From Apostichopus japonicus (Eukaryota; Echinodermata; Holothuroidea; Aspidochirotida; Stichopodidae), in the NCBI RefSeq assembly GCF_037975245.1, contig NC_092569.1, forward strand, positions 16,166,001 to 16,230,000: a stretch of 64,000 nucleotides of DNA, given 5' to 3'. A program made the position numbers and the translations under genes. Under the pieces are notes generated by a model. The model made no database searches, was not told the origin of the DNA, and was given only the letters and a program-made list of their open reading frames with translations. Below, piece after piece: positions 3,554 through 63,325 of this stretch (positions are counted from its first letter, which is position 1; the number at the start of each line of letters is the position of its first letter).

Positions 3554-6500
3554 TTACACTGGACGTATCTTCATTTCTGCGTATTTAATGTTGTAATTAC
3601 CTCCTGGAAGACTATACCAGCGGATGCTTTTATGATTAGTACTTCCCGCTGAGTAAAGTCCGTTTAAACTGACATAATAATTATAATGATTGTACCACCA
3701 AGCTCCATGACAATACTGGGCCATGTTATGACTACCATTAAGGTCGTTGTCACGGTCTAATGTCGTAAATGACTGGTTCCTGAAGTATGCCATTCTATCA
3801 ACCGCTGTGAAAAAGAAATCACGAGATAGAGATAAAAATGCATGATTATATCTACAATAATATTAAGTTATTTCCATACGGCATAAATTAAGAGGATTTT
3901 CATAGTAGAATTTGTGTAAGATTAATGAAACACTGTCATATTAAACAAACATTTTCTTTAAATTTTTATTTATTTCCAAACAAATGTCGTTTACACTGCT
4001 TGAGGAATTATTAGTGCCTTTGGATGAAACTGAACTAATATGGATTTGCTTTATTATATTTTTGTGTTTTTTCCCAACATTGTTAGTAAACCCGGATATA
4101 TTTTATTGCAAACTGACCATCGCTTTACTATAATACTGGAACCCTTTTCGAACGTAAATTAATAAATATAATAAATACGGGACAAAATAGCTGAATTTAG
4201 AACCAGTTTGTTGTCAGTATCCAACTTTCACATCACACCTTATGGATTCATTTTTCTTCATGATACACACTATGTTTATTTCAAGTTATATATCATTGTG
4301 GGAATCGTCTTATGGTTTTATTATTGTTTATGAAGTCTATACAGATTTCTAATTTATTTTGTTTATTCTCTTTTTGTTCTGTTTCCATAAGAACGAAGGT
4401 GATGCCTTTTAGATTATTAGAGAGGATGAAGAAAAAGTTATAGGATGATGGGCAGATGAAAAGGAAGTTGGAATAGGTTTGTTGTTATCAATTACAATGC
4501 ATTCTGTCACTGTAGGTATATGTATCAACCCGAGTTCATTTAAGGTATATCTTTCAACATGAGTTCATTTTCGGAGCGCATTCATCATGGATTCCAACCA
4601 CAGTTCTACCTGGCCAGGTTTCTTCCGATTTGATGACAAACAATGTACTATTTGAATTAAAATAGAGTCAGTAATTGACTATGACCGTCGGCTGTCTATG
4701 CTTGAGCTCCCAATGTTATCGATTATCAAACATGAGTATACTTTATTAAATTTCACATTCGAACACATTAAATGAAACAGATTTATTTAATATTTCTGGA
4801 TATTTTGGAGACAGTGTGCTCAGTGTGATAGCGTTGACGTGATGTATTCGTCTTGTTTTTTTTGTTTTTTTTATAACAACAGAAGTAGAGTATAACGGCC
4901 ATTGCCCGGGAGGTTTGCAATGAATCGTTGCAAATGTATGCAATGTTATAGTAAAACATGTAAAAGAGATTGAATATCGGTTTTGAGCTGATCATTTCTA
5001 AAATGTCTGCGTATATGCTACATATTTGATGAATGGTTACAATCTTCTAATGGACTGACAAACTAAATACACGGGTACATTTAGGTAGTTATGCATAAAT
5101 TGGTAGAGGCGTTCATAATTTCCTTGCTAATACTCAGTCCTTTGAAATATTTGTTTTAAGGTATTGATGCTGACAAGCAGAATCAACGAGGTTGTATATG
5201 TACGTACCTGTAGTGCTGGAGCTATCGTAGTCTCCAAGGCCAACTAAACGATATTTAGTCTTTTCATCGCTGATCCTAAACAGGTCGTACTTGGCAAAAT
5301 AAGGATCTCCATTCACGTTGTTTAAATCAATGCGAAGCATGTAATCCTTTTGGTTAGTTAAGAGTGATATTTTATCGTTGCCAAGCCAAAATTCCCTTTT
5401 CAGGAAACCAAAGCCATCTCTGTAATCATCCCAGTCTCTGTAAAATTCTACGGAACCATCGACCCGGCGTTGGAAGACCTGGTTTAGTTTCAAAAGAAAA
5501 ACATTTCATATTTGGTTTGAAAATAAAGAACAATGTGAACCATTAACGTTTGAGGATATGCTGTATTAGACCGAGTGTAGTTAGTGTTTTAATGGTGCGT
5601 CTAACGTTGAACAGATACAATAGCCTGTGCATCATTTACATTATTCTTTTTCTAATAGAATACATTGGTATCATATCACTTTAGCTCATATTGCAGTAAT
5701 ATGGCTGTAGACACATTTGAAGGTAGCGAAAAACTGTCTCGCTATAAGAGAAAACAATCATACTTAAGATTGTTAAAGGTTACTCGTGCAGTTTTGTTAA
5801 GCGTTATTAGAAATAAATATCTAAGACGGTAAATTTGAAACTAAGTAACGTTTTCCTGAGAATTTCCTTACCGAACGAATCAGCCCCTGTAACACACATA
5901 ATCTGTATCAAGGAATCGCTTTTTAATGAACCAATAAAGTATAAAATATCAAAATACTGCAGCAGGCACGCTAAGTAGAAATTAATTAAGGCTTATATTA
6001 TGTTATGTTCTTACCGTCCAGCCTCCCCCGTCAATTGAGTTATTACAGTAAACTTGAAAAGGTTCATTGGCTCCATCTGGCTTAATCAGATAAATTCCAG
6101 ATTCAGAGGAACTCCCTTCACATTGGTCGTAAACTTCTTTACAATCTCGAGGATATTCTGGCTCTTGGTAGAAAAAGTAGGAGGAGTCTGAAGTAATGAA
6201 AGGAAAAAACTTCAAGTTGTAAGAAATGGATGCGATCATGTTTAAAGTGAACTACCGAACTCGATGTCCCGTTTACCGCTCTATCGATACAATTGGAAAT
6301 TACGGTTTGTAAGAAAAAAAGAAAAAAAGCTTTCCAAATATTAAACATAACCTTCCATACATTTTTTTGGTGCTTGGAATAACACCATTGAAGTTAACGT
6401 CGTCAAATCGTAAAAAGGAACAACAAATATAGAGAGAAATCTTAAACGAAGTCACGGAATATCCCACCTCTTCCCCCGCAAGAAAAATAAATCCTGATAA

Positions 6501-9500
6501 GTTCTGGTAAAAAGGTCAATTAAATTTAAAACGACAAATAATTGCGTTCTTTCCCACCGCTGTGACAAACATTAAAATGCTTCTCAGCCAGTGTTAAAAG
6601 CGTGTTGCTTTTCGATTTTTAGACATTTTAGCTTTTTTTCACTAAATTACAAAAACCAGAGTACGCCTTTCCGTGAAGAAAAAATTATGACTTTAGGTAG
6701 TAGCTTTTAGTTCATATTAATTACTACATCATGAAACGTATTTACGTATATTAAGTATTAAGTATTAACGCATATTAACCCAAAATATGTGAAGACCACA
6801 AAAGCAGAAATCACCACTATTGTCAATCTAGATCATTAATATGACTGATCGATTAATACTGTTTTGATGATATTATTTGAAAACGGTTCTGAATATTAAG
6901 TGACATGAATACTATATATGTTTTTATTCACCGATAGTTACTCTGTAATAATTGCTTCCTAAAAGCATGAAACCCAAAGCAAAAATGTAAATTAAACTAA
7001 ATGCTTACCGAAATTATAAATGAAGTAAACTAATTTAAGAAAAAAAAAACATACTGTCAGTTCTTTTTATTATAAGCCGTTTCCAGCCAGCTTTAAAAGT
7101 GGGTTAATTTTCGTTTTACAGTTAGTTTTCTAACTAAATTAAATAATCCACAGTACGTCTTTATGTGAAGAAAGCATTGCAAACACATCAAACAGTCGAT
7201 GATGATATAAGGTAGTAGGTATTGGTACATAGTTGATTAAAAAAAAAAAAAAAACGGAAGTGTAACGCATATTAAACAAACGTGTGTACCAAAAATCAAA
7301 CGAAAATCACTATACATGTCAATCGAGTTACTGATATGAATGATTAATTAAGTTAGATTAATCATTTACTTCGATGGGTACCTCTAAAATAAAAAATAAT
7401 TAAATTAAATTGCATTCATACTTGTAATGGCCTTTGTTAAAACGTGACTTTTTTCCCCCAACAATTGAAATATGCGTGTAAAATAGTAGAAACAAAAAGG
7501 AATAATGATGATAAATTTTTCTTACCTCCAGTGCTTCTTTTGTTCCTTCCAGAATTTTCCCGTCCAACATTCTAAAATGGAGATATGAAAATTGACATTT
7601 GAAAGAATCAACATTCCGATATGCGGGATCGTCTCGTTTGTGAAGGCTACTCATCGCTGAAATCAAATCACGATTAGAAATTCAGTTTCAAATATTGTTA
7701 AGTACTGTTTATCTTTGATTAAAATCCAATGTAGTGAAACCAAGAATCGTTAACTTTGTCACCATTTAGGTAATCCTAATTCTTTCACTGACAGAGAGGC
7801 AATCAATTTGACCCCACTCGATTGACAATGTTTCTGTATTGTTCATATTAAGATCTCTCTGTTTGACTCATTTGTAGGAAACATTATGGGAAATCAATCG
7901 ATTATTCCAACACTCTGTTCCAACACAGTTGAACTATAGGGTCTATAACGTGTGTATAGAACTTTCTGTAAGTCGTGACTTATTTTAATGAAAACAAAAC
8001 GTGGTTCTATTCTATACTGTGGTCTTTGTGTTTTTTGACGACAAACCTTAAATAAACAAAGTTGAAACTATTTTGATGACAGAATGACTGAATAAACAAA
8101 TTACTTATTCAACGCCATTCTTGCCCTGTTTCCCGCCCTTATAATATATAACTTAGATAAAACAGTATAGTAGACGTTTTAATTTTCGCGACATGAAGTG
8201 AGAAAGGAATATGATTCCTTCCCGTAGGAGAACAAAAAATCAAAATTGAATTCAATGAGCTTTTTGAAATGAAATGAATCTAGAAAATACTAGTAAATTT
8301 GATAGCTTGAGACTAAGACAAACACACGGTTTTCTAGACGTTCATAATTTTCATAAATATATCTCACATTAATGTTTGCGTCTGTGTATTAAAACGTAAA
8401 TACGACTATCGTAGTGCTTAGCTGAGGTAATTATCGTTAAGTAAGTTAAGATTGATGAAAATATTACGAATTGACTTTCATGTACGTACAAATATAATTT
8501 GAATTATCCTAGTTAATATAATTTAAAAAAATGTTAGAAAGTTCAGTGATTTATCTTCAATAGTACTAAGTGTGGTAAGTACTCTCACCGCTTGTTCTTT
8601 CAAGGTTCTGTTTGCTTAGTAAGTCTACCATTTTGACATTATGGCATATATGATTTATTTGTAATTAATAATCTAGAATACTCATTAAAATTCCCTCATA
8701 AACTACGACCACCAATACAATTTATGCATCATAATAATCAAACTTGTAATGGGTGCTTTACTGCCTTTCTCACGTTTTCAAATGTTTCCAAAGATAAAAG
8801 CCTATATTTTGACTGTTTAATGCAGACATAATTCCTTAAAATGTACATAAATGACTCCCTCGGTAGAATAAATAAGTTTCAGTAGTGCGTGTCCCGATTA
8901 GATATTTACAATTTTGGTAAATTTTGTTGTTTGGTTTATTTGCAGAGTTAAACAAGCCGAATCAACTTTATTCTCTACTTGGTATGTTGGTCTGTGTTGA
9001 TAGTAAGTTTAATTTATGAAATATAGACTAAAGTAATTTACAGTTGGAAATATTATATACTGGTACTTGGTAGATTCACATCGAATGTAATCGATTCAAT
9101 ATTTACATCAAGAGTTTTAAATCAAGTGATTTATGAGTATACTTTTTTTTATTTTAAGGCATCATTCCACAACATATAATGTAAATATAAAGACGTTTTA
9201 AGTTTGATTGGTTGGTCTCGGTTTGTGTACAGTACCCTACCTCTCATAATTTACCTACGAATAGATTAAATGTCAAATATGAAGGTCTAAACTATGTTTG
9301 TGCAGAAATATTGAAAGACTACATTCGGCAGCCCAAGTGTCAGGAGCGTTAACATTTGTTAAAATTAATAACTTATTGCTTTCCTAAGTAAGTAGTAGTC
9401 ATTTAAGTATCAGGTTTTTAACTATTTGATTTCTTCATCGATTGTTAATCAGGTTACTTGCTATTTTGAAAGGTATACCTGAAAACACATTTGTCAAATT

Positions 9501-11117
9501 TATATATTTCTTGGCGCAAAAATGGAGAATGCCCATCCAAGAATATCAGCAATCAAAGGCTTAGAACTGCTTACTGGGAAAATGAACATTATCATAACAC
9601 GGACGTAATATTCGCTACCAAATTTCTTCCAACAGAATATATAATATATATCCAATGAATGGGAAATAAATATTTATTTGAGAGATAATTTAAAGACCAC
9701 TATTATTAAACACGATACAACGGTGACATGAAACATGATATTTTACTCAGTCTCTAGAATAAATTTGTTTGATATACATTGTAGTAATACGGTGGACTTT
9801 GGCCAGACATATCCGAAGTTCATGTGGGTAATCTTGATGAAATTAAATCAAGAAGTTTCTTTTCAACTTGTTTTACTGCTATAAAAAAAGGAATTCTATC
9901 ACGATTTCCTTGATGACATGTCAAGAAAGGAACGCGCTCAAAACACAGGAAAGAACAAACGACAATGTCGATTGATATAAACAATGAGCTCGCAATAGAA
10001 TAAATATATTTCTAGAATAACGGTTATATTTAGTAGCTATTAACATATGCCAAAATCGTTGCATTGTATATTTATACAAGTCAAAACAACTTTATTTTTT
10101 TGTCTGCTTTTGATGTGCTTTAGTCTTAAATGTAACTAATGGAATATATATTTGACATTTGAAATTATTGGATCTTATTTTCTTGATATAGAAGATAATC
10201 GTTTGAATATTTCCCGCAACTTAAGTTTTTATGATTTATGAGTATTTTTTTTTATGTAAGACATCATTTAACCATTTAATCTAACTTACCTAATCCGATA
10301 ATTAGATAGTGTTACGTTTTATCGATTGCTTCAAATAGTTCCTATTATTGTTTCAAGGCATTAAGTTATTGGTATTGCACTGTACCTTGTATCTAGCAAG
10401 TCACCTTCCATCATGTATTTTTAAATATATATTTAAATTGCCGAAAATGGATATTGGAACTATATTTATACTATAGGAATGATGCACCAGCTTGGAAGCA
10501 AGTTAAAGATGGCTTAAGGAAAAATTTCAGTTAATCCTTGTTAAGGAATCCACAGTTATATCCTTACATATGATAATTATTTTCCCTTTTTAATGTTATC
10601 GATCATTGTTACAGTTTATTTGCTATGTTGTACGATATAATTAAATACCCGTTTGAAACGTGATCGTTTCCACGATATATCGGCAAGCCATTGTCAATTT
10701 TAAATTGCTTGTTGTATTCGTTAAAAAAAAAAAGGAATTCATATCGTTGTTTTAATAAAATAACTGATATTGTAACCCATTTTCAAACCCATGTCTATTT
10801 ATGATATGGTGTACTAAGACGTCCTATACATTATATATAGTTTACAATGAGCACTCTCGATTTTCCTTTTTAATATGTAGATTAAGTACAATATACCAAT
10901 ATTTTACAAACAGACAAATACATCAATTGAACACCGACAACAAACTCAAACAGCATGGTAAAGAACAACTGAAAAATCATATTTAGTTTAACAATTATTG
11001 TGTTAAAATATTCAACTTTAACTTGATAACAAGATGAAAGAAACTTACGGTTTCTGCCTGAAAAGCTGGAAGTTGAGAGAAGAGTCCCAAAACACAAAAT
11101 GTTAAAATGAACTGCAT
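3554..11117 (-). CDS. FReD gene A: secreted fibrinogen-related lectin-like protein, five exons, 269 aa
   Basis: Coding exons are 11049-11117, 7526-7571, 6015-6187, 5208-5478 and 3554-3804 (phases 0,1,0,1); every junction is GT-AG and the sum is 810 nt. Residues 1-23 are a hydrophobic signal peptide (MQFILTFCVLG...). Residues 32-35 are RNKR, a furin-type site. The FReD runs from PRDC (51-54) through VYC (84-86), DGGGWTVFQRR, FWLGND, DRDND (203-207) and GAWW (220-223) to KIRPV at the end. Sequons lie at N87 and N196. The family is secreted and binds carbohydrate or acetyl groups through a calcium-stabilised pocket; that role is inferred here. Cysteines are C54, C61, C86 and a lone C218; the usual second FReD disulfide pair is absent. 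The start codon has A at -3. A possible AATAAA lies 3373-3378. No frameshift or stop is seen. Confidence 0.9.
7572..11048 (-). other. Intron 1 of gene A, with a conserved block near 10.6-10.7 kb
   Basis: This 3.5-kb intron separates the signal exon from exon 2 and has counterparts in B (20619-23419), C (33400-37322) and D (46564-50489). Most of it is AT-rich and drifts between copies by point changes and indels. A block at about 10615-10725 is much better preserved, matching B 22970-23075, C 36850-36962 and D 50135-50240. It contains the inverted repeat GAAACG-TGAT-CGTTTC at 10655-10670. No extra FReD exon was found inside the intron. Confidence 0.6.
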
Positions 11118-16907: not shown

Positions 16908-19900
16908 TTAAACTGGACGTATCTTCATTTCTGCGTATTTTATGTGGTAATAACTTCCTGGAAGACTATACCAGTAGATGCTTTTGTAATTAGTACTTCC
17001 TGCTGAGTAAAGTCCGTTGAGACTGGCATAATAACTATAAGACTTGTACCACCACGCTCCATGATAATACTGGGCCAGGTTATAACTACTATGAAGGTCG
17101 TTGTCACTGTTGAATGTCGTAAATGACTGGTTCCTGTAGAATGCCATGCTATCGTATGCTGTGAAAAATAAAACACGAGTTCGAGATAAAACGCATGATC
17201 ATATTAACAATAATATTAGGTTGTTTCCATACGGCATAAATTAAGAGAAGTTTCATTGGAGAATTTATGAAAGATTAATGAAGCACTATTTTATTGAACA
17301 AAAGTTTTCTTTAAATTTGTATTTATTTCCAAGTAAATGTCGTTTACACCACTTGAATGATATATTAGGGCCTTTAGATGAAAACTGAACTAATATGGAT
17401 TTGCTTCATTATTTTGTTTTTGTTTTTTGCCAACATGATTAGTACACTAGGACATATTTTTATTGCAAACTGGCAATCTCTTTACGATAACACTAGAACC
17501 CTTTTCCAATGTCAATTAATACAATGAATACAATAAAAACTGTACAAAATGGCTTAATTTAATCCAGTTTGTTGTCAAGTATCCAATTTTTACATCACAT
17601 CTTATGGATCCCTTTGTACTTAATGGTACACATTATGTCTATTTCAAGTAATATATCACTGCTCCGACAATGGTACCGGTATATGGGAATCGTTAAAACA
17701 AATTAATCGATAATTATTGTGAAGAACATTATTTTTTCATCAATGGTTTTATTTACCAAATTATTGGATTATTGTTTAAGAAGTCTAAAAAGATGTCTAT
17801 TTAATTGTCATTAATCTCTTTTCGTTCTGTTTCCAGTTGGACGGAGGTGAGGTCTTTTTGATTATTAGAGAGGATGAAGAAAAATTATGGGATGATGAGC
17901 AGATAACGAGGAAGTTGGAATAGGTTTGTTGTTATAAATTACAATGCATTCTGTCACTGTAGGTATAAGTGTTTCAACCTGAGTTCATTTAAGGTATATC
18001 TCTCAACCTGAGATCATTTACGGAGCTGATTCATCATTTACTCCAAACACAATTCTACCTGACCATTGAGCTGATAATTTCTTAAAATGTCAACGGATAT
18101 GCTACATATTTGATGAATGGTTACAATCGGCTAATGAACTGACAAACTAATTACATGGGTTAATTTGACAACAAATGTTAGAAAGGGAGGTAATGGGTCA
18201 AGGTAGTAATGCATAATTTGATAGAGGCGTTAATAAACTCCTTGCTAATCTTCAGTACTTTGAAATTTCTTTGATAAGGTATCGATGACAAGCGAAATCC
18301 ACGGGGTTTTATATATACGTACCTGCAGTGCTGGAGCTATCGTATTCTCCAAGGCCAACTAAACGATACTTAGTCTCTTCATCGCTGATCCTAAACAGGT
18401 CATACTTCGCAAAATAGGGATCTCCATTCACGTTGTTTAAATCAATTCGAAGCATGTAATCCTTTTGGTTAGTTAAGAGTGATATTTTATCGTTGCCAAG
18501 CCAAAATTCCCTTTTCAGGAAACCAAAACCATCTCGGTAATCATCCCAGTCTCTGTAAAATTCTACGGAACCATCGACCCGGCGTTGGAAGACCTGGTTT
18601 AGTTTCAAAACAAAAAAATGGTTTCAAAATAATGAACAATTTGTACAATGTACCTTTGATGTGTATGACGTATCAGTGTGGTAGTGTTTAATGGTTCGTC
18701 TTACGTTGAACAGATACGGTAGCCTGTGCACCATTATTCTTTTTCTAACAGAATAAATTGGTATCATATCATTTTTATGGCTGTAGGAACATTTGAAGGT
18801 AGCGAAAAACTGTCTCGCTATAAGAGAAAACAATCATACTTAGGATTATTAAAGGTTACTCGTGAAGTTATGTTAAGCGTTATCAGAAATACATATCTAA
18901 GACGGTACATTTTAAACTAAGCTACGTTTTCCTGAGAATTATATCAAACTAAAAGATACGAATAAAGAATGCATGCCTTGTCGAACGAATCAGCACCTGT
19001 AACACACATACTCTGTTACAAGGAATCGCTTTTTACTGAACCAATAAAGTATAAAATATCAAAATACTGCAGCAGGCACGCTAAAAGTAGAAATGAATTA
19101 AGGTATATATTATGTTATGTTCTTACCGTCCAGCCTCCTCCGTCAATTGAGTTATTACAGTAAACTTGAAAAGGTTCATTGGCTCCATCTGGCTTAATCA
19201 GATAAATTCCAGATTCAGAGGGACTCCCTTCACATTGGTCGTAAACTTCTTTACAATCTCGAGGATATTCTGGCTCTTGGTAGAAAAAGTAGGAGGAGTC
19301 TGAAGGAAGCAAAAAGAAAAACTTGTAAGAAATGCATGCGATCAATTTTAAATTGAACTACAGAACTCGCTGTTCCGTTTACCGAACTCTCGATAAAAGT
19401 GAAAACGGTTTGCAAAAAAGCAACAACAAATGTTTATCAAAGTATTAAACATAAATCTTCAATGCATTTTCCTGCTTGGGAGAACACCATGAAAGTAAAA
19501 AATTTAAAATCATAAAAGAACGCAACAAATATATAGACAAATCTTAAATTGAAGTAGCAGAACACCTGAATAAATGTCTATTTAATTTAAAACGACAAAA
19601 GTTGGCCTCCTTTTCACCGTCGCGAAAAACCTTTCATTTTTTTAAATTTCCCAGCCAGTTAAAAGCGGGTTGCTTTCCATTTTTTTTTTTTTTACATTTT
19701 TTTAGTTTTTTAAACTAAATTACAAAACCACGTCATTTGAGTACGCCTCTCTGCCAAGAAAGAATTATAACTTTAGGTGGTAGGTTTAATTAATATATAT
19801 ACCTACCACATCAAGAGACTTAAGTATCAATGCATATTAACCAAAAATATGTGAACACCACAAAAGCAGATATCACCATCATTGTCAATTAAGATAATGT

Positions 19901-29142: not shown

Positions 29143-32100
29143 TTACACTGGACGTATCTTCATTTCTGCGTATTTTATGTGGTAACTACTCCCTGGAAGA
29201 TTATACCAGAAGATGCTTTTGTAATTAGTACTTCCCGCTGAGTAAAGTCCGTTTAAATTGGCATGATAATAATAAGAAGACTTGTGCCACCACGCTCCAT
29301 GATAATACTGGGCCATGTTTAAAGTACTGTGAAGGTCGTTGTCACTGTCGAATGTCGTAAAGGACATGTTCCTGCTGTATGCCATTCTATCATACGCTGT
29401 GAAAAGGAAACACGAGATGCAGATAAAACGCATGATCATATTAACAATAATATTTGGTTGTTTCCATACGGCATAAATTAAGAGAAGTTTCATAGTAGAA
29501 TCTGTGTAAGATTAATGAAATACTGTCACATTAAACAAACATTTTCTTTAAATTTGTAGTTATTTCTAAATAAATGTTGTTTACACCACTTATTAGTGCA
29601 TATTATTAAATGAAAACTGAATTAATAGTGCCTATTATTAGATGAAAACTGAATTAATATGAATTTTCTTTATTACATTTTTGTGTTTTTGTTCAAAATT
29701 ATTAGTACACCACGATACATGTTATTGCAAACTAACCATCTCTTTATGATAACACCCTTTCCAACGTCAATTAATACACACCATAAATACGAGACAAAAT
29801 GGCCCAATTTAAACCAGTTTGTTGTCAAGTATCCAATTTTCACATCACACTTTATGGATTATTTTTTGTATTTCATGACACAGACTATATCTATGTTAAC
29901 AAATATATCGTTGCTACGACAATGTTACCGGTATGTTGGAATCGTAAAAGACAAAAATCAATAGTTATTATGAAGAACATTATTTTTTCATCAATGGTTT
30001 TATTTACCAAATTATTGGATCATTGTGTTAAAAGTCTATAAAGATTTCTACTCTGTTATTATTTTCTTTTCTTGATGTTGCCAGTTGAACGGAGGTGATG
30101 TCTTTTTTATTATTATAGAGGATGAAGAAAACTTATGGGATGATGGGCAGATGACAAGGAAGTTGGAATAGGTTTGTTGTTATAAATTACAAGGCCTTCT
30201 GTCACTGTAGGTATATGTATCAACCTGAGTTCATTTAAGGTATATCTTTCAACCTGAGTTCATTTAAGGTATATGTATCAACCTGAGTTCTTTTAAGGAG
30301 CCCATTAATCATGGATTCCAAATACAATTTCACCTGACCAGCTTTCTTTCGATTTGATTACAAACATTCTACTATTTGAATTAAAATACAGTCAGTATTT
30401 GACTATGCTTCAGCTCCCGATGTTATCGTTTGTCACACATGAGTATACTTTCTTAATTTCACATTCGGACACAATCAATAAACCAAATATAAAGAAGATT
30501 AATGGATATTCTAAAGACAGTATTCTCAGTCTGATAGCGTTGACGTGATGGATTCGTCTGGTGTTTTAATAACAACAGAAGTGGATTAACGGGCATTGCC
30601 CGGGAGGTGTGCAAGGTATCGTTTTATGCAGATTTATGCAATGTTATTGTAAAAATGTTAATGAGATCATAATTATTAATATCGTTTTTGAGCTGATCAT
30701 TTCTAACATGTCTGCGTATATGCTACATATTTAATGAATAATTACAAACAGCTAATGAACTGACGATTCTAATTACACGGGTTAATTTGACGACAAATGT
30801 TAGACAGGGAGGTAACGGATCAAGGTAATTATGCATAATTTGGTAGAGGCGTTCATAATTTCCTTACTAATATTCAGTCCTTTATTTATTTTTTTTTATT
30901 ATTTTTTTGAAGGTTTTGATGCTGACAAGAAGAATCAACGAGGTTTTATATTTGCGTACCTGTTGTGCTGGAGCTGTCGTATTCTCCAAGGCCAACTAAA
31001 CGATATTTAGTCTCTTCATCGCTGATCCTAAACAGGTCGTACTTCGCAAAATAGGGATCTCCATTCACGTTGTTTAAATCTATGCGAAGCATGTAATCCT
31101 TTTGGTTAGTTAAGAGTGATATTTTATCGTTGCCAAGCCAAAATTCCCTTTTCAGGAAACCAAAGCCATCTCGGTATTCTTCCCAGTCTCTGTAAAATTC
31201 TACGGAACCGTCGACCCGGCGCTGTAAGACCTGGTTTAGTTTCAAAACAAAAACATGTCATATTTGGTTTTGAAATATATAACAATGTGAACGATTAACG
31301 TTAGAGGGTACGATGTATTAGACCGAGTGTAGTTAGTGTTTTAATGGTGCGTCTAACGTTGAACAGATGCGGTAGCCTGTGCGCCCTTTGAATTCTTCTT
31401 TTTCTAATGGAATACATTAGTATCATACAATTTTTGCCCACATTGGGAACAGGCATGTAGCTGTCGAAACATTTTGAGGTTTTGAATCTTTCTCGCTATG
31501 AGAGAAAACAATCATACTTAGGATTATTATATGTTCTCGGGAAGTTATGGTTAGCGTTATTAGAAATTCATATTTAATACGGTAAATTTGACACTAAATA
31601 ACGTTTTCCTTTGAATTAAATCAAACTGAAAGATGTGAATAAATAATGTATGCCTTGTCGAACGAATCAGCACCTGTAACACACATAATCTGTATAAAGG
31701 TAACGCTTTTTACAGAACCAACAAAAAGGAAGCACGCTAAATATAAATTAGTTAAGGGTAATATTATGTATGTTCTTACCGTCCAGCCTCCTCCGTCAAT
31801 TGAGTTATTACAGTAAACTTGAAAAGGTTCATTGGCTCCATCTGGCTTAATCAGATAAATTCCAGATTCAGAGGAACTCCCTTCACATTGGTCGTAAACT
31901 TCTTTACAATCTCGAGGATATTCTGGCTCTTGGTAGAAAAAGTAGGAGGAGTCTGAAGGAATGAAAAGGAAAAACTTGTAAGAAATGAATGCGATCAACT
32001 TTAAAGAGAACTACCAAACTCGGCGTCCCGTTTACCGGTCTATCGATCAAACTGAGAATTACGATTTGCACAAAACAAAAATGTTTTTCAAAATATAAAA

Positions 32101-37554: not shown

Positions 37555-38388
37555 CATTTGTTATAACCTGGATGATCACGTAAATAATAACACAAGCTAA
37601 CAGTTTTTCTATTGTCCCTTAAAGAATAAAACTTATGACAATTACTATTAGTCCAATTTTATAGCTTTAATTGTATAGAGGTAATGCGATGTTGCTTAAA
37701 TGGTCACATCAGTTACAATACATTCATATGCAATCTCAAACCAATTCAAAATATCTCTTTCGATAACACAAATTATATGGCATATATATTAAATTTAGCT
37801 TTTTAACCTTTCACCTATAAGTACCTCCGTTAGATCGAATCCTAACGTACTACTTTCAATGAACTGAATTTCGTCTCCTGTAGCTTACTATGAACAGTTA
37901 AATAATGTTAAGGAAACTGCTTTAAAGCCCCTTAAGCCGTGCCAAAAATTCAAATATATATCTACAATCAAGAGGTTACCATTTAACAGTATCAAACCTC
38001 CATATCTAGGAAAACACGAGTTTTTTATTAATGAAATCCCACCCATGCTCTCTGCAAGTTACCATGTTTTTTGTGAAATTTCCCAGGATGCAACGTTTGC
38101 ATGACGTCACACATGTGCCTCGGCAGAGTTAGACTTGCCGCTATGCAGATTCTCTCGTAGAACCGCTCCACACAAAACCACGCTCGCGTACGGTATATGC
38201 TGAAACTACTAAACTATCATTAATTTTTAAATTATTACAACGGTTGAACTGGACTTTATTATCCAGAAATCTAAAGAAAAATAACTTAGTCATCATGTAG
38301 CCATCCTGCGTTCGATTTTGAGTAATGTACACAGACGACATGTAGCCTAGGCCTAAACAGTGTATCGTCCAATGTCCACAATCGTAGT

Positions 38389-38440
38389 TCGAGTAACAAG
38401 TATAGTTACTATATAACTTAGTCATAGTAACACTACTCGA
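38389..38440. other. Two-stage hairpin upstream of gene C
   Basis: An outer pair TCGAGTA (38389-38395) with TACTCGA (38434-38440) encloses an inner pair GTTACTAT (38405-38412) with ATAGTAAC (38424-38431). Copies upstream of A, B and D keep most of the pairing; in A the inner arm grows to 10 bp (GTTACTATAT with ATATAGTAAC). Confidence 0.5.
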
Positions 38441-39249
38441 CATACTGTGACTGCGATCATCACTTCGTCGATGAAAAGTATCGTTCATTCGAGCAATTCG
38501 ACATGACTGAGGCCCACATTATCCCATATGACTATTGCGTAGAACTGACTCCATCACCCCGACATAAGATGCGACACAAAAATAGTAATTCCAGAAGAAA
38601 TTGATTGAGCCGTAGTTTAAAATTCGAAAGCAAACAATGACAATCACTGTGCGTCTGTGTTGACAGTCATCTTGCAAAATACCAATTTACGCAAATTTAT
38701 TTATAAACGACATTTAGCGTACGTATGCATCTATCCTTCAAAATTGGTTAAATATTTTACATTTACCTGAATTCTGAAGATGTTTTACACTTTTTAATTA
38801 ATATCCTAAAGTCTTACAAGTTGTGTAAAAATTAACTATGTTAATATCATTTGAGTTGGCAACACATTTTCAGGAACTATCACATGTGCATTTATGACGT
38901 CGTATACAGCTGATTGTCCGCCTCCCTTTTCTCCAATATGGAAGAAAAGGGCGGATAAGGGGATAATGGCCGGGAATTTTTTTTTTTTCATTCCATGAAG
39001 TCGTAAAAGAGTAACATGATAAAGGTCATTATTGTTGGCGTAAATATGTATACTGAAAGTATGTGAAGAGTCAATCAGGCAGTATTGCTCCCCATTAAGG
39101 TTAGTTTATACAAGGAGAAGGATTTGTGTTTTTATAGTGTCTTTGTGAAGTTACCCTTACTACCAACATGTTAGAAAGGCAATGGAAGGGAGTTCTTTTA
39201 ATGAATGGAATTTATGACGTAAGACGACATCAATCATATCATACATTGT

Positions 39250-42742: not shown

Positions 42743-43529
42743 TTACACTGGACGTATCTTCATTTCCGCGTATTTTATGTTGTAACTACTCCCTGGAAGA
42801 TTACACCAATACATGCTCTTGGAAGTAGTACTGCCGGCTGTGTACAGTCCGTTCAGGTTAGAATTATAATCACAATAACAATAAGTACCGTGCCACCAAG
42901 CTCCGTAACAATACTGGGCTAAGTTATAACTAGAGTGACGATCATTGTCGCGATTGAACGTCGTAAATGTCTGGTTTCTGTGATTCGCCATCCTATCGAT
43001 TGCTGCGAAAGGAAAACACAAATACGAGATGAAGTAGACATGGTTCTTCATTATATTATTTATTTACACGATTTACTTAAATACTGGATGCATCATTACG
43101 ACTTTCTGGATACATTTGTTGGAGATAATGAACAGGCTATACAATATAATATGTTAGAATCCTTCTAAAATGTTATGTTGATAGTTACATTGTTGTGCTT
43201 CAAGAGTACTCGTGGTAATCACATGTGATATCACAGCTGTCATTGAAAAGTTTTTTTTTTTAAATTCCCATTTTGGGATCAATTTGTATTGACTTTGCAT
43301 TCCCCCAAGTTAAGGTATAAACGATTGGGTAGAAATGCAATGGTTTTTGATATTTTTTTTTTATTTGGTGTACAGTAAAACTATGACATCACTCACACTT
43401 GTTTCCATGAAGTACATTTATTAAACCAAGTTCCTTACAATTTCAGCTATTAAAATATGGATAAATTTTCCAATTACTGGAAAATTAATGACAAAGCTTA
43501 GATCCATGTGCTTCAGTTGTCATAGGTAG

Positions 43530-43609
<80 letters not shown>

Positions 43610-46600
43610 TGTTTCTGTTTAATTCCCTTTTCTTAGTTTGTTTTGTTTTGTTTTGTGTTTTTTTGTTGTTGTACTTTCCTAAAGGGTTTTATTGCTATGA
43701 CTATATGAGAGCAGGGTAGGAAATAGGAGATGTCATACTTTGGACATTCCATTTCCCTATATCTCTACTTCCTGGTTGACACTCAGATAACAAGGGAAAT
43801 TAATTTGACGAAGAATATTCTATGTTTATAATCATATCTTGCGACTTTTCAAGTAACTATATTTATTGTCATCTGTATATGCAGAGTTTACTACCTACCG
43901 TTGCCAAATGTCACAAATGGCACATTTTTCCGAAATGCCAATTGTTTATAACCTTTAAATTTTGTACTGATATATTTATCGTATTGATAGAAACACTGTA
44001 TTAACCATATATCATATACTGCTGATGTTTAAATTCCGAGTGAGAGTTATACATCAGAACAGCAGGGAAATACAAAGTGCAAACACATAACTTATTATAT
44101 ATACGTACCTGTTGTGCTGGAGCTATCGTATTCTCCAAGGCCAACTAAACGATACTTAGTCTCTTCATCGCTGATCCTAAACAGGTCGTACTTCGCAAAA
44201 TAGGGATCTCCATTCACGTTCTTTAAATCAATGCGAAGCATGTAATCCTTTTGGTTAGTTAAGAGTGATATTTTATCGTTGCCAAGCCAAAATTCCCTTT
44301 TAAGGAAACCAAAGCCATCTCGGTAATCATCCCAGTCTCTGTAAAATTCTACGGAACCATCGACCCGGCGTTGGAAGACCTGGTTAAGTTGCAAAACAAA
44401 AACATGTCATATTTGGTTTGAAAATAAAGAACAATATAAAAAAAAAAAACGGTTTACGTTTGAGGGGTATGATGTATTAGACTGAGTGTAGTCAGTGTTT
44501 TAATGTTAGGTCTTACGTTGACGGTAGCCTGTGCACCATTTTGATTCTTCTTTTTCAAATGGAATACATTGGTAACATATATTTTTTGCCCATATTGCGA
44601 ACAGTAATGTAGCTGTAGAAACATTTTGTGGTTTCGCAAAACTTTCTCGCTATAAGAGAAAACAATCATACTTAGGATTATTCATGGTTATTCGTGAAGT
44701 TATTTTAAGCGTATTTTAAATACATATCTAATACGGTAAATTTGACACTAAGTAACGTTTTCTTTAGAATTAAATCAAACTAAAAGATATGAATAAAGAC
44801 TGCATGCCTTGTCGAACGAATCAGCACCTGTTACACACATAATCTGTATAAAGGAATCGCTTTTTACTGAACCAATAAAATAGAAAATATCAACATACTT
44901 CAGGAAGCACGCTAAATAGAAATTAACTAAGGCTAATATTATGTTATGTTCTTACCGTCCAGGCTCCTCCGTCAATTGAGTTATTACAGTAAACTTGAAA
45001 AGGTTCATTGGCTCCATCTGGCTTAATCAGATAAATACCAGATTCAGTGGAACTCCCTTCACATTGGTCGTAAACTTCTTTGCAATCTCGAGGATATTCT
45101 GGCTCTTGGTAGAAAAAGTAGGAGGAATCTGAAGGAATGAAAGAGAAAAACTTGTAAGAAATGGATGCGATCAATTTTAATGTGAACTACCAAACTCGAT
45201 GTCCCGTTTTATCGGTCTATCGATACAATTGAAAATTACGGTTTTCAAAAACAAACAAAAACTGTTTTTCAAAATAATGAACACAAAATTTCCATACTGC
45301 TTCTTGCTTGGAAGAACAACATTGAAGTAAACATTGTAAATTCGTAAAAGAACAACAAATACACAGAAAAATCTTAAATAAAGTAACAGAATACACCCCC
45401 ATCCCACCGCAAAAAAAAAAAGAATCCTGATAATTCTGGTAACTATGTCTATTTAATTTAAAACGACAAAAGGTTGGCCTCCTTTTCACCACCGCGACAA
45501 ACATTAAACGGCTTCCAGTAGGTTTATTAACTTTTCAGCCAGTGTTAAAGAGTGTTGCTTTCGATTTTTAGATATTTTAGTTTTTTTCACCAAATTACAA
45601 AAACCAGAGTACGCCTTTCAGTGAAGATATGATTATGACTTAGGGTAGGGTTCATATATAATTACCACATTAAGAAAGGTAAGTAATAACGCATATTAAC
45701 CAAAAATATGTGAAGACCCCAAAAGCAGAAATAACCATAACTGTCAAACAATATCATTAATATGACTGATCGATTAAGTTTCTGTAAAACTGTTTTCGAT
45801 GATATTATTTTAATAACGGCTCTGAATATTAAGTGAGATGAAAACTATATAGGCCTATGTATATATTCACCGATGGAAACTCTATAATAATAGTTTCCTA
45901 AAGACATGTAACCCAACTTAAAAATGTAAATTAAGTTACATTTTAATTACAAATTAAGTAAACTAATAAAAAAAAAACAGATCAATTCTAGAAGCTATGT
46001 TTCTTTAAGATTATTCAATAAATGTTGGCCTCCTTTAGACCACCGCGAAAATCGTTAAAAGGCTCTCAGTTTTTTTCTAACTATAGGTTGTTCCCAGCCA
46101 TCTTTAAAAGCGGGTTAAGTTTCGTTTTACAGTATTTTATTGTAACCAAATTAAAAAATACGTCAGTACGTCTTTATGTTAGGAAGAATTTTAAAACATT
46201 TTAAACAGTCGGTGATGATGGTTTTGGTGCAAAGTTATTATTACCCCATCAAGAAACGGAAGTATAACAGCAAATCAAACAAATGTATGTCAAAAAAAAA
46301 AAACAGAAATCACAATAAGTGTCATTCAAAATCAATGATATAAATGATTCATTAAGTTAGATGAATCATATATATATCGATAGGTACCTCCAAATTGAAA
46401 AAAAAAAATTACATTGATACTTGTAATGTACATCTTTATAACATGTATTTTTTTTGTAAAAGATTCATGTCAAAGTTCCTTGAAAAAAAAAGAATAAGAA
46501 AGATAACTTTTTCTTACCTCCAGTGCTTCTTTTGTTCCTCCCAGAACTTTCCCGTCCAAGATTCTAACATGGAGATATGAAAATTAAAAATATAAAAGTC

Positions 46601-50722: not shown

Positions 50723-52186
50723 CTATTTGTTATAACCTGCATGATCACGTAAATAAAAACATAAGCTAACAGTTTTTCTGTTGTCCCTTAAAGAGTAAAA
50801 ATGATGACAATAACTATTAGTCCATTTTGATAGCTTTAATTGTATAGACGTAATGCAATGTTGCTTTAATGGTCACATTAGTTATATTATATTCATATAC
50901 AATCTCAAACCAACTCAAAATATTTCTTTCGATAACACAAATTATATCGCATTATATATATTACACTCAGCTTATTAACCTTTCACCTATAAGTACCTCC
51001 GTAAGTTTGAATCCTAACGTATTACTTTCAATTAACTGAATTTCGTCTCATGTAGCTTACCATCAACAGTTAAATGATGTTAAGCAGTGCTAAATATCCA
51101 AATATATATCTACAATCAAACTTTTGAATACCGTTTAACAGTATCAAACCATCCATATCTAGGAAACACGAGGTTTTTTTTGAAATCCCACCCAAGCTCT
51201 CTGCAAGTTGCCATGTTTTTGTGAAAATACACAGGATGCAACGTTTGCATGACGTCACACATGCACCTCGGCAGAGTCGGACTTGCCGCTATGCAGATTC
51301 TCTCGTAGAACCGCTCCACACAAAACCACGCTCGCGTACGGTATATGCTGAAACTAGTAAACTATCATTAATTTTTAAATTATTACAACGGTTGAACTGG
51401 ACTTTATTATCCAGAAATCTAAAGAAAAATAACTTAGTCATCATGTAGCCATCCTGCGTACGATTTTGAGTAATGTATTCAGACGACATGTAGCCTAGGC
51501 CTAAACAGTGTATCGTCCAATGTCCACAATCGTAGTTCGAGTAACAAGTATAGTTACTATATAACTTAGTCATGGTAACACTACTCGACATACTGTGACT
51601 GCGATCATCACTTCGTCGATGAAAAGTATCGTTCATTCGAGCAATTCAACATGACTGAGGCCCACATTATCCCATATGACTATTGCGTAAAACTTTCTCC
51701 TTCACCCCGACATAAGATGCGACACAAAATTAGTAATTCCAGAAGAAATTGATTGAGCGGTAGTTTAAAATTCGAAAGCAAACAATGACAATCACTGTTC
51801 GTCTGTGTTGACAGTCATCTTGCAAAATACCAATTTACGCAAATTTATTTATAAACGACATTTTGCGTACGTATGCATCTATCCTTCAAAATTGGTTAAA
51901 TATTTTACATTTACATGAATTCTGAAGATGTTTTACACTTTTTAATAAATATCCTAAAGTCTTACAAGTTGTGTAAAAATTAGCTATGTAAATAACATTT
52001 AAGTTGGCAACGCATTTTCAGGAACTCTCTCAGGTGCATGTATGATGTCGTAAACAGCTGATTATCTGCTTCCCTCTCCTCCAATATTAAAGAAAAGGGC
52101 GGATAAGGGCAATAGCCGGTGAATTTGATTTTTTTTTTCATTCCATGAAGTCGTAAAGGATTAACATGATAAAGGTCATTATTGTT

Positions 52187-52193
<7 letters not shown>

Positions 52194-52264
<71 letters not shown>
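52194..52264. repeat. (TA)n microsatellite upstream of gene D
   Basis: About 35 TA units. The matching places upstream of A-C carry only short TATATA stretches. Confidence 0.95.
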
Positions 52265-52265
<1 letters not shown>

Positions 52266-53359
52266 TAAAAGTATGTGAAGAGTATATCAGGCAATATTTC
52301 TCCCCATTAAGGTTAGTTTATACAAGGAGAAGGATTTGTGATTTTATAGTGTCTTTGTGAAGTTACCCTTACTACCACCATGTTACAAAGGCAATGGAAG
52401 GGAGTTGTTGTAATGAATGGAATTTATGACGTAAGACGACATCAATCCTATCATACATTGTACAGTATGTGTATAGTAAACCTCTGAACATCTAAGACAA
52501 TATGACAGCAGTGATCAAATGGTTTCATTAATTTATTTCAGTTGGTCTTACTAAACAGTTGCCTTGAAGTTAAGGCCGACACTGACTGTCTTTCCATTTT
52601 TTTAATAGTGTAATCGTGATTTCGACTTGTGTCGGCGTTTCTCCTATATGACCGATGAGAATGACGGAACTTTTTATCAATTGTTGCCTGTCACAAAGAC
52701 ATACATACACGTGGTCTGAGCATTCAGTGGTTATAGAAGACGTGTGTAGTACTGCGTAGAAAGAGAAGCAATGTAATAGCCAGAGTAGATTACGTCAACA
52801 GGAAAGATAAAGGAAATCATCCCCTGTAAAATGATATGCTAGCCAACAAGAATTATACAGATAAACAGGTCAAGCCCATGTAGGAGTTAGAAGTTTTAAA
52901 TTTATATGCAGTCGTTTTCTGTTTGAGAAAAACCAATTTAATGTCTTTGAAGGTACCTCTACAGGTTATCAGTGCTGAATGATTCCAATTACATTAGAAG
53001 GGTGTGTTTTGGTTGGCTATGCATGTATTCAGTAAAATTCTTAATATTGATGACAATAATTCAGCCTCAGAAGAATATTTTTTTCTCTTTATTCAGACAG
53101 GTTTTAGTAAGTAATAACAATAAATACATATTGGATATTTTTCATCCTTTGTTTTTGTGTACACTGTTTGTCTAAACATAAATACATAAACCGTACTATA
53201 AGAAAAAATGAAACGCACATAGCTGAACAAAAATTGGGCTCAAAGTTGCTATTTTGTCGTGGATAAAAGAAATGTTTAAATTTTGGAATTGCATCTTCTC
53301 CTTAACCAAAAAAAAACTTATTATAAACTGTCATTTTAAGCTAGATCTGCAAAGTAATA

Positions 53360-55150: not shown

Positions 55151-55415
55151 TTACACTGGACGTATCTTCATTTCTGCGTATTTGAGGTGATAAGATCCAC
55201 CTGGAAGATCATACCAGAAGATGCTCTTGTATAATACGTACTGCCGGCTGCGTACAGTCCGTTCAGGTTACAGTCATAATAAAAATCATAGCAATGGGTA
55301 CCGTACCACCAAGCTCCGTGACAATACTGAGCCAAGTGATAATTAGAGCGACGATCATTGTCGCGGTCTAACGTCGAAAATGTCTGGTTCCTGTGATTCG
55401 CCATCCTGTCGTATG
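55151..55415 (-). pseudogene. Orphan, frameshifted FReD exon 5 (copy E)
   Basis: This is a terminal FReD exon of the D/F subtype with no exons 1-4 beside it. Its acceptor (TTGCAG before CATACGAC) is intact and the phase fits exon 4 of the family. It encodes AYDRMANHRNQTF, LDRDND, and a pocket loop with three cysteines (QYC, THC, YDC). It is 265 nt against 260 in D and F: one extra codon in the loop plus two extra bases near 55230-55240. The two bases shift the frame after AGST, so the last 20 or so residues, ending KIRPV in the other copies, are lost and translation would stop at 55168. It lies downstream of gene F in the direction of transcription, so it could be a dead fragment or an alternative last exon of F. 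Confidence 0.8.
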
Positions 55416-57802
55416 CTGCAACAGGAAAACACAAATAAGAAAAGAAGTAGACAGGGATCTTCATTATCATATTAAATACACGTTTGAATTATTTTCCACG
55501 AATTAAATAGTAAATGCATTTTTAGGACTGTTTGGGTACAACCGTTGAAGGTATACAATCTCCAAAATTTCTCCTGTAAGTATATTTGTAAATTATAATA
55601 TTGATAGTTACATCGTTTTGTGCCAAAATGTACTTGTGGTGATCAGATGTGATGTCATAAATGCCTTTGATAAATCTGATTTTTTAATAAAATGTAATTC
55701 TAATGTTGGGAACTTTTCATTCCTTCAAGGTAAGTTCTGAACAATAAGATAAACATCTAGCAACTATTTTGTTGTATAGTGTGCAGTACAACTACGACAT
55801 CACATCTGTTTGCACCATGTTTAGTTATTATACCACTGGCAAGTTACTACCAATTTCAGCTTTCAATATATCGATAACGGTCACAGTTGGTGGCAAGTTT
55901 TATTAAAATGCTTAGAAACTATTTCTCTTTTATCAGTAATCTCATTTACCCCTTGATTATCCTAGGAGTTTGACAGGTCTATATATATTTTAAATTAGTA
56001 AAGAAGCTCTCCTTTAAGCTTGTAATATATTTTTTTCATCTATAAGAAACTCATCCGTACCAAGTTTCTTTTCGCCAGCCTGATGGGAAAAAATGAAATT
56101 TATATGCTCCCTTGTTCACTCGTTCCCACCTCTACTCGCTCCCTCGTCCATAATTGTCTTTTTGGATCATTGTACATGTTATGGTACTACGTATGTTAAG
56201 TGCGCATAAAAAAAAGCGGGCGCACTCTCGAATTAAAATTTAGGAAACCAAATAATTCAAGAACGACACATTTATCGTCAGTGTGTTAAGCCTTTGTTTT
56301 ATTACTTTTATCAAGGACATGCTGAGGCACCAACTTAATCTGAACTGTAACATTATACCGCTAGTAGAATCACCCACTTCGAACACTGTTTCTTTGCCTT
56401 TTGTTTGGTATGAGAAAGAGCCCTTTCAAACATCTAGGTTTATGAATTAAAATGTCTCTACTACTTAGTCTAGCATGCAGACCATTATTTCAGTTGCTCA
56501 GATGCAACCCAAAACACAATTTTAAGGGCTCCCAAATATAACTGGTTTCCAGTGTATCTTGTTTTTGTTTTGTTTTTTTGTGTCCGACAAGTCATGTTGT
56601 ATATCATTTACGGATACGTTGCTGTTTATATGGGGTTTTAAAGAATTTACGTTGGTTTAGTCATTACAATTATATAAAAAGATACTGTAACAGTTACAAT
56701 TTACCATGAAAAGGCGCATTCCAAACAATCTACTATTCTAAGAGGAATATTTCGAATTCCGGGCTAAACTATGGAAACATTGTGAGCACTCTGTTCTCCC
56801 GGTGTATCAGGTATTACGACTTAGATTCTGCCTTAAGCGATCCTTTAACGATAATGAGATTTACTTGAAGTATTTTTCTTGGTTCGATTTTGATTGCTTT
56901 ATTAGTTAAAATTGGTAAAGGTGGGTACCGGTTACTTAGTTAAAACTGATGGGTGTTATAATTTCTTAACATGTGTTACATTTATGACCAGTTGCTACTG
57001 AGGACTTAAAAATAGAAAATACCAAACACACAATCTTATACATAATGATTGACTGGACAACCAGACTAATTTAAAGGTTTCGCCAATTATTTCGTCCACA
57101 TTTTAACAGAAAGTGGATGACACTTAACTGTTAAACGCTTAAAATCTGCATTTTGAACCATCTTTACAACGTCAGTTAATAGGTTTGGCACAGTAGTATC
57201 TGCCGACATGTCTAACATGTGTTGCGGTGTTATAACATACTTCAGTTTATACTTATTAACGGTTGCCTCTTATGAACAGTACAAACTAATCAAGAGTCCG
57301 TTGCCAAATTAAGACTACACTAGATCATCTGACTGTTTTGACCAAATGAAAGTTATTATATAAAATTTGAGATTCCACTCAATGTTGGAAATTTAGCCGC
57401 CAAGACATTTTTTAAAGTATACATTAATCACATGAAATGATCTACCGCAATGCCTACCGTAAAATTCGTCCACTGTCGGGAAACCTCTGCAGAGGCTACA
57501 GTGTAGCACCAATGTGAAAGTTCCATTACCTTATCTTCTCTAATTCTATCGTTAACTATATGTAAATCCAGACTTTAAAAAATTTCGAACAGTTTACGAC
57601 CATTGTTATTAGTAACTTTATCCCCATGGTTGTACCGAGCTGTGCAAATATCTTATAGATCAAGATCAGATTTTGAGTTCAAATCATTGTATAAGTTATC
57701 GGAATCAGTTCCATGCATTTAAACTCTTCAGAGTCAAATAGGTTACTTAGCGTGTTCGTTATTGCATATTCATAAATGCCTAAACAAACTTTCTGTATAC
57801 TG

Positions 57803-59601: not shown

Positions 59602-63325
<3,724 letters not shown>

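Follow-up and report, generated by a model that had tools for sequence, protein, structure and literature searches.

The minus strand of the 64-kb window analysed in this work (contig C9:16166001-16230000) carries a tandem array of genes for secreted FReD (Fibrinogen_C) proteins with a unit of about 13 kb, and our results show that exon 5 of these genes is one of two old cassettes (class I and class II), each accompanied by an intron 4 and a 3' flank of its own. Exons 1-4 and their flank form a module that has stayed similar throughout the array. Recombination has joined modules and cassettes anew several times, with the seam just beyond the exon 4 donor. We put the probability at about two in three that the array represents a germline-diversified family of small secreted FReD recognition proteins, built from these cassettes and a variable loop. 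Such a division of labour within a single array, with a homogenised scaffold, two swappable terminal cassettes, and a triplet-repeat loop at the expected binding site, makes it possible to ask whether an antibody-like loop repertoire can be obtained from germline copies in an echinoderm.

Organization of the array

The genome search (671,581,487 bases in 35 contigs) recovered at least 37 exon-5 and at least 35 exon-4 matches over about 0.56 Mb, between 16.15 and 16.72 Mb of contig C9; these counts are lower bounds, with 150 candidates scored per search. Beyond the array, more than 110 further FReD matches were obtained for exon 4 and for exon 5 alike, in several clusters that lie mostly on contig C9. 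Seventeen genes were mapped across 260 contiguous kb, each with its own exon set; exons 3 and 4 were read in these first 17 genes, and exon 5 was read in all 37 copies.

The gene model comprises exon 1 (a 23-residue signal-peptide-like start), exon 2 (46 nt), exon 3, exon 4 (90 codons), and exon 5 (about 83 codons), and the splice sites follow the consensus in nearly all inspected copies (Table 1). The spliced proteins of copies A and F matched Fibrinogen_C (PF00147) over the full length of the domain (E 1.4e-65 and 2.2e-64; residues 51-268 of A and 51-271 of F against positions 2-220 of the 221-position profile), and the Pfam scan of these two proteins returned no other domain. The stretch ahead of exon 3 amounts to about 38 residues. 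The 46-nt frame of exon 2 is open in eight of the nine copies scanned, the ninth (H) ending differently; another frame of this exon, reading LDGKILEG, was dropped because the splice phases require the 46-nt frame. Directly ahead of the FReD, exon 2 of copy A (Table 1) and its equivalents encode GRNKRS, which we take to be a furin-like site and which might serve to free the FReD domain.

Table 1 Features of the array in the window (positions of the window, minus strand as indicated)
Feature	Position	Strand	Remarks
Window	contig C9:16166001-16230000		array genes on minus strand
Copy A exon 5, class I cassette, coding part including stop	3554..3804	-	acceptor AG, then CG
Copy A hypervariable loop YNHYNYYVS	3668..3694	-	TAC AAT CAT TAT AAT TAT TAT GTC AGT
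Copy A exon 4	5208..5478	-	ends in phase 1, donor GTACGT next
Copy A exon 3	6015..6187	-
Copy A exon 2, 46 nt	7526..7571	-	phase 0 in, phase 1 out
Copy A exon 1, coding part, signal-peptide-like MQFILTFCVLGLFSQLPAFQAET	11049..11117	-
Copy B exon 5, class I	16908..17158	-	loop 17022-17048
Copy B exon 4	18323..18593	-
Copy C exon 5, class I	29143..29396	-	loop 29257-29286
Copy C exon 4	30960..31230	-
Copy D exon 5, class II	42743..43002	-	loop 42857-42892
Copy D exon 4	44109..44379	-	3' border by analogy with other copies
E, frameshifted class-II-like exon 5 relic	55154..55419	-	two frames: 55154-55231, 55231-55419
Copy F exon 5, class II	59602..59861	-	loop 59716-59751
Copy F exon 4	61112..61382	-
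Copy F exon 3	61927..62099	-

Several genes of the array are disabled, as stop codons occur in 4 of the 37 exon-5 copies (Z, O, L027, and L028) and exon 4 of copy G is frameshifted. Identical loops are shared by J/L005/L006/L007, N/Q, D/L054, H/L030, I/L019, and F/P, and these copies, which lie far apart in the array, are signs of recent segmental duplication. No exons 3 or 4 were found beside the exon-5 relic E, of which an intact relative, copy L, is situated about 88 kb away. A second relic similar to E was located at C9:16367865-16368071 (window coordinate 201865-202071), and there too no neighbouring exon 3 or 4 was found. Both relics lie a few kb downstream of the near-identical copies F and P, and are therefore part of a block duplicated about 147 kb apart. 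The idea that E serves as an alternative 3' exon of F was dropped, because E is frameshifted and a similar relic is present 147 kb away beside the near-copy P; E is treated here as the remains of a lost copy. Some units also contain long TA microsatellites (window about 43506-43689, 52180-52325, and 60374-60629). Two similar open frames of 118-125 codons lie on the minus strand upstream of exon 1 of two copies (window 38141-38518 and 51289-51645), probably by chance.

Two exon-5 cassettes and a shared exon 1-4 module

The two classes became apparent when mean p-distances within class I, within class II, and between classes were compared (six genes per class, P being omitted from the class II means). 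There was no class structure in exon 4 (0.041/0.048/0.047) or intron 3 (0.138/0.170/0.154), whereas the between-class value stood out in the first 600 bases of intron 4 (0.214/0.231/0.565) and in the first 300 bases of the 3' flank (0.156/0.161/0.438). The between/within-class ratio was 0.95-1.07 from the 5' flank through exon 4 and rose to 2.0-2.8 from intron 4 through exon 5 to base 300 of the 3' flank, beyond which it was 1.5. The break could be placed about 15 nt beyond the donor of exon 4, at which point a common GGTACGTATATATAA-like start gives way to dissimilar sequence (12 copies), although the introns 4 of the two classes may be homologous but saturated instead of unrelated.

Trees of 13 genes gave the same picture. 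On the 5' module tree, the class label needs 5 changes against a mean of 4.5-4.6 for shuffled labels, and class I as one clade is rejected (AU p 0.00014); copy L forms a long branch in this tree. On the joined 3' module tree, which includes exon 5, a single class change with support 100 sorts 13/13 genes, and the last 400 bases of intron 4 sorted 18/18 further loci with 0 cross-hits. Copies A and F illustrate the exchange best: they differ at 7 of 997 positions of the 5' flank and 12 of 270 positions of exon 4, but from the seam on at 275 of 476 positions of intron 4 and 58 of 246 positions of exon 5, so that they are close kin in the exon 1-4 module and carry different cassettes. In the whole array, 11 of the 15 class II and 20 of the 22 class I assignments were made by intron 4 or the 3' module tree, and the other six by exon similarity. 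The class I placement of copy A comes from its 3' module DNA, against its place in the exon-5 protein tree across clusters, where it groups with L058 and class II and where class I is not one clade; that tree has 71 columns and several long branches, with stop-bearing and duplicate rows left out, and the conflict could be explained by exchange inside exon 5.

These observations bear on the simplest account of the array, namely that each exon 5 has changed in place by selected point mutations while the scaffold was held by purifying selection, as the first-pass annotation had proposed. A dN/dS of about 0.2 in exons 3 and 4 and a higher ratio in exon 5 agree with it, but the tree of exons 1-4 ignores the two classes seen in intron 4, exon 5, and the 3' flank, and A and F are nearly the same sequence up to intron 4 and diverge from there on. 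The distance, tree, and intron 4 results thus refute this account as a full explanation, which we regard as very improbable and which could hold only within a class. An artefact of assembly, in which misjoined or collapsed copies mimic module swaps, is hardly credible either. It is true that assembly is difficult for a long array of similar units and that identical loops occur in several copies (N/Q, F/P, D/L054, and J/L005/L006/L007), but the seam is found at one place in 12 copies, the joined 3' module sorts all 13 genes into two classes, and an A. japonicus assembly of matching size (671.6 Mb in 34 scaffolds) is described as made from HiFi reads (PMC10344927).

Exon 5 is old as well as fast

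The first-pass annotation had placed exon 5 of copy A correctly and had described a strongly variable exon 5 behind near-constant earlier exons; this contrast was confirmed and runs across the array, although the limits given for the earlier exons were slightly too narrow. In the ten pairs formed by A, B, C, D, and F, exon 3 differs at 0-3 of 58 residues (0-2 had been claimed), exon 4 at 2-6 of 90 (at most about 5 had been claimed), and exon 5 at 10-28 of 82-85 residues plus 0-4 gapped columns. Between A and F, for which more than 20 changes in exon 5 had been counted, we found 24 of 82 plus 3 gapped columns, and the five loops quoted there are right in every letter. Length changes occur in whole codons, as had been noted, and are confined to the loop: in 37/37 copies the segment that runs from the N(Q/M)(S/T)F motif to WW spans 28 residues, and that from LNG to the end spans 37 residues in 36/37, L025 having 38. 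Copy A carries a second LNG motif.

In 13 intact genes (leaving out Z and O, which have stops, G, which has the frameshifted exon 4, and Q, a copy of N), dS was 0.434 in exon 5, 0.124 in exon 4, and 0.066 in exon 3, and the corresponding dN values were 0.151, 0.025, and 0.014. The resulting dN/dS was 0.35 for exon 5 (0.27 without the loop), 0.20 for exon 4, and 0.21 for exon 3; where means were taken for class II in this set, P was omitted as well. Relative to exon 4, dN of exon 5 is thus raised about 6-fold and dS 3.5-fold. Because dS is raised as well, much of the excess divergence of exon 5, including the difference between A and F, is due to age, and exon 5 is old as well as fast. The annotation had preferred diversification over a simply older exon, for which equally diverged silent sites would speak; for the exon as a whole the silent sites have indeed largely diverged too, and what survives of the preference is the loop and the selection in class I. 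Its "fixed scaffold" likewise stands in part, since exons 1-4 are alike, yet partly through homogenisation, because their silent sites and intron 3 are similar too.

The hypervariable loop

The loop between GAWW and LNG has 8-16 residues and occurs in 28 distinct forms among the 37 copies (24 among the 33 stop-free exons). At the DNA level, it is an interrupted tract of TAT triplets, which varies between copies in length and in residues. Codons were counted in 29 distinct loop DNAs from which the first two and last two codons had been removed: TAT made up 100 of the 191 central codons, and 177 of the 191 end in T, compared with 805 of 2713 elsewhere in exon 5. The one-step neighbours of the Tyr codons in the loops were Asn (26), Cys (20), Ser TCY (11), Asp (5), and His (5). 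Phe and stop codons are also one step from TAT and would both be expected to be common under slippage and mutation alone, but Phe was absent from the 191 central codons and from all 28 loops, and the only loop stop codon belongs to the disabled copy Z. The chi-square p value of this codon distribution (1.7e-8) is too small, since related loops are not independent, and should be taken as indicative only.

Comparisons of closely related copies show the kinds of change involved. A single TAT and two further bases distinguish L052 from L053, and J differs from L010 by an Asn to Asp change in the loop and one base elsewhere. D and F differ at six framework bases and four loop residues, while F and P differ at five bases ahead of the loop and at no loop residue. 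In 15 exons sampled from the more than 110 further FReD exon-5 matches of other clusters, the loops have 6-9 residues, except that of L058, which has 12. Among the open-licence papers listed for coding trinucleotide repeats in the loops of lectins, none was relevant.

A probably rebuilt ligand pocket

The best PDB match was ficolin-2 (E 5.8e-51), in which the loop has 8 residues. The residues were numbered with WW as 409-410, as implied by the spacing to Cys401 when aligned with ficolin-2 and by the numbering used in PMC3908420, so that the loop runs from 411 on. In FIBCD1, according to the structural description in PMC3908420, the acetyl oxygen is bound through the backbone N of Cys414 and of His415, the Cys401-Cys414 bridge connects the calcium site with the acetyl site, and the methyl pocket is lined by Tyr405, His415, Tyr431, and Trp443. 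On this alignment, the variable loop does fall, as had been suggested at first, on the segment lining the S1 pocket of FIBCD1, but the Cys pair that shapes this pocket is gone, so that any diversified specificity would be that of an altered pocket.

Cys401 together with Cys414, the ficolin-type pocket pair, was found in 0/37 array exons but in 14 of the 15 exons sampled from other FReD clusters. Cys405 together with Cys415 is present in 15/15 class II exons and in 0/22 class I exons, four of which have C405 alone. The remaining one of the 15 exons from outside the array, L058 (C9:32268570-32268850, 16 Mb away), reads NSG for NCA and has Cys at the 405 and 415 equivalents. In the exon-5 protein tree, the array exons and L058 are united (97/93) to the exclusion of the canonical exons, indicating that the loss of the canonical pair is derived. 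As the canonical pair is absent and class II has an alternative one, the acetyl pocket appears to have been rebuilt, not just varied. We predict from the residue positions that C405 and C415 of class II form a disulfide reshaping the pocket; in FIBCD1 the acetyl methyl is contacted by residue 405 as well as residue 415, and such a bridge would therefore fill the old pocket.

The S1 pocket residues Tyr405, His415, Tyr431, and Trp or Tyr443 are not kept as a set either. Across the 37 copies, Cys, Tyr, Trp, or Asn occupies the 405 equivalent, and the 415 equivalent, at which His never occurs, holds Cys, Asn, Ser, Tyr, or Asp. In place of Trp or Tyr, the 443 equivalent has Gly or Ser in 16 aligned copies and Asn in copy H, and the placing of the 431 equivalent in the ficolin-2 alignment is uncertain owing to a two-residue gap. 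The D-N-D motif, presumably the calcium site of acetyl-binding FReD lectins, is invariant in 16/16 aligned copies, and the disabled copy L027 has DNE.

Selection on exon 5

By counting, dN/dS of the loop was 1.31 over 13 genes; the value for the class I loop was 5.6, which rests on only about 7 silent sites and was not used as proof. The selection models were run on 13 of the 22 class I exons (G included, four exons with stops and five duplicates excluded) and on 13 of the 15 class II exons. In the partition model, omega was 1.66 in the class I loop against 0.63 in the rest of exon 5 (p 4e-5), and 1.11 against 0.45 in class II (p 6e-5), these p values being taken from chi-square without a recombination check. 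A loop omega above 1 was not significant at 5% in this model in either class (p 0.063 in class I and 0.7 in class II).

The site models gave a clearer result for class I. The comparison of M1a with M2a in our own implementation yielded a 2dlnL of 32.1, with 11% of sites at omega 5.7; 2dlnL was 26-40 across five variants and 29.6 with the loop removed, whereas the same model gave no signal on exons 3 and 4 (2dlnL 0.5 and 0.0). As a recombination null, 36 data sets without positive selection and with one recombination breakpoint were simulated. Among them, 12 exceeded 5.99, which means that p values taken from chi-square in the usual way come out too low for paralogues of this kind; the maximum was 17.5 and 0/36 reached 26, so that the class I result corresponds by simulation to about p < 0.03. 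Positive selection at the loop and pocket-side sites of class I exon 5 is thus supported beyond a recombination-aware null. For class II, M2a was unstable across variants (2dlnL 0.08-8.7) and stayed inside the range produced by recombination alone, and positive selection in this class was dropped after the tree-choice and recombination controls.

The class I columns with a posterior above 0.8 are equivalent to 384, 399, 401, 413, 436, and 444. Position 401 is that of the pocket Cys, 413 lies in the loop, and 444 adjoins the pocket residue 443 as numbered in PMC3908420. Judged from the alignment, several of these columns would be S1 residues or their sequence neighbours, and 384 is neither. In class II, column 62 lies near the 431 equivalent, where the two-residue gap makes the placing uncertain.

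A competitor to a selected repertoire is that exon 5 is merely older and its loop a drifting coding microsatellite, with no selection for diversity. A dS in exon 5 that exceeds those of exons 4 and 3 by factors of 3.5-6.6, the class II loop omega of 1.1, not above 1, and the T-ending, TAT-microsatellite-like triplets speak for this view. Neutral stuttering does not fit so well with the absence of Phe from the 28 loops and the restriction of stops to the disabled copy Z, given that both are one step from TAT, nor with C405 and C415 in 15/15 class II exons, and the class I site signal persists without the loop (2dlnL 29.6) and beyond the recombination null. We therefore consider this explanation unlikely.

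Proposed mechanism and function

Each gene joins a homogenised exon 1-4 module to one of the two old exon-5 cassettes, modules and cassettes having been recombined repeatedly. We propose that the dissimilar introns 4 block homologous exchange between the classes; with exchange blocked there, conversion or unequal crossing-over would level exons 1-4, and exon 5 would evolve within its class. Triplet slippage and point mutation would supply loop variants, from which selection would retain polar, hydrogen-bonding residues (Tyr, Asn, Ser, Cys, His, and Asp) and purge stop codons and Phe. Positive selection on the loop and pocket-side sites would act in class I, where it is supported, and is not supported in class II, in which the invariant pair at the 405/415 equivalents may reshape the pocket after the loss of the canonical one.

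The resulting proteins would be a repertoire of soluble recognition lectins, probably directed against microbes. This immune role is suggested by FReD biology and by the sea cucumber FReD transcripts raised by LPS: such transcripts are reported to rise in the intestine of Holothuria glaberrima after LPS (PMC2702171), and a 2.58-fold increase at 4 h after LPS is described for A. japonicus coelomocytes, which was not so in H. glaberrima (PMC4264123). A serious alternative, although in our estimation a rather less probable one, is a repertoire for ligands of regeneration, matrix, or self-recognition and not of microbes, which conflicts only with this last step of the proposed mechanism. It agrees with the report that FREP genes of A. 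japonicus, of which 21 form a tandem cluster, are up-regulated in visceral regeneration (PMC5638244), and the LPS responses in H. glaberrima intestine (PMC2702171) and A. japonicus coelomocytes (PMC4264123) argue against it. Neither the regeneration report nor the LPS reports are linked to this array.

Beyond the repertoire reading, we tentatively speculate that the TAT tract is a built-in hypermutable diversity generator of the germline, and perhaps also of somatic cells, situated in the ligand loop, where slippage and one-step changes from Tyr codons would make new Tyr/Asn/Ser/Cys/His/Asp loops of varying length, with cassette swaps spreading the loops. If this rather unlikely reading were true, the two Cys architectures would be two loop frameworks, and each animal and population would possess a CDR3-like repertoire without V(D)J joining.

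Comparison with known systems

FReD expansions are known in many invertebrates, and to our knowledge the site and manner of variation of their recognition surfaces are mostly unclear. No description of this array or its loop system was found among the open-licence papers listed, which does not imply its absence from print. The array proteins share the Fibrinogen_C domain with ficolins, tachylectin 5A, and FIBCD1, and their variable loop sits where the FIBCD1 backbone is described as binding the acetyl group (PMC3908420). They differ from these lectins in lacking the C401-C414 pair, in never having His at the 415 equivalent, and in having neither Trp nor Tyr at the 443 equivalent in the copies aligned; the loop also ranges up to twice the 8 residues of ficolin-2, and the collagen-like domain of ficolins was not found in the array proteins A and F. 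The FREPs of the mollusc Biomphalaria are likewise described as an expanded and diversified FReD gene family, whose variants are ascribed to gene conversion and point mutation (PMC7588048). The N-terminal IgSF domain of mollusc FREPs was not found in proteins A and F, and unlike them, the array varies in a loop exon of the FReD itself.

Among echinoderms, the SpTransformer (Sp185/333) genes of the sea urchin, described as small, highly diverse genes that form a clustered family and carry repeats in their second exon, encode a protein family other than FReD, and the array instead has one triplet tract in a loop of known fold. Clustered protocadherins and other variable-exon clusters, as they are described, resemble the array in that one part of the paralogues is levelled and another part diversified. 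Protocadherins share a constant exon, whereas each mapped gene of the array has its own exons. Variation of the loop exon seems to be a means of obtaining many recognition proteins on a single frame. The array also recalls antibody CDR-H3, a length-variable loop rich in Tyr, Ser, and Asn on a conserved fold, with the difference that the diversity of the array lies in germline paralogues.
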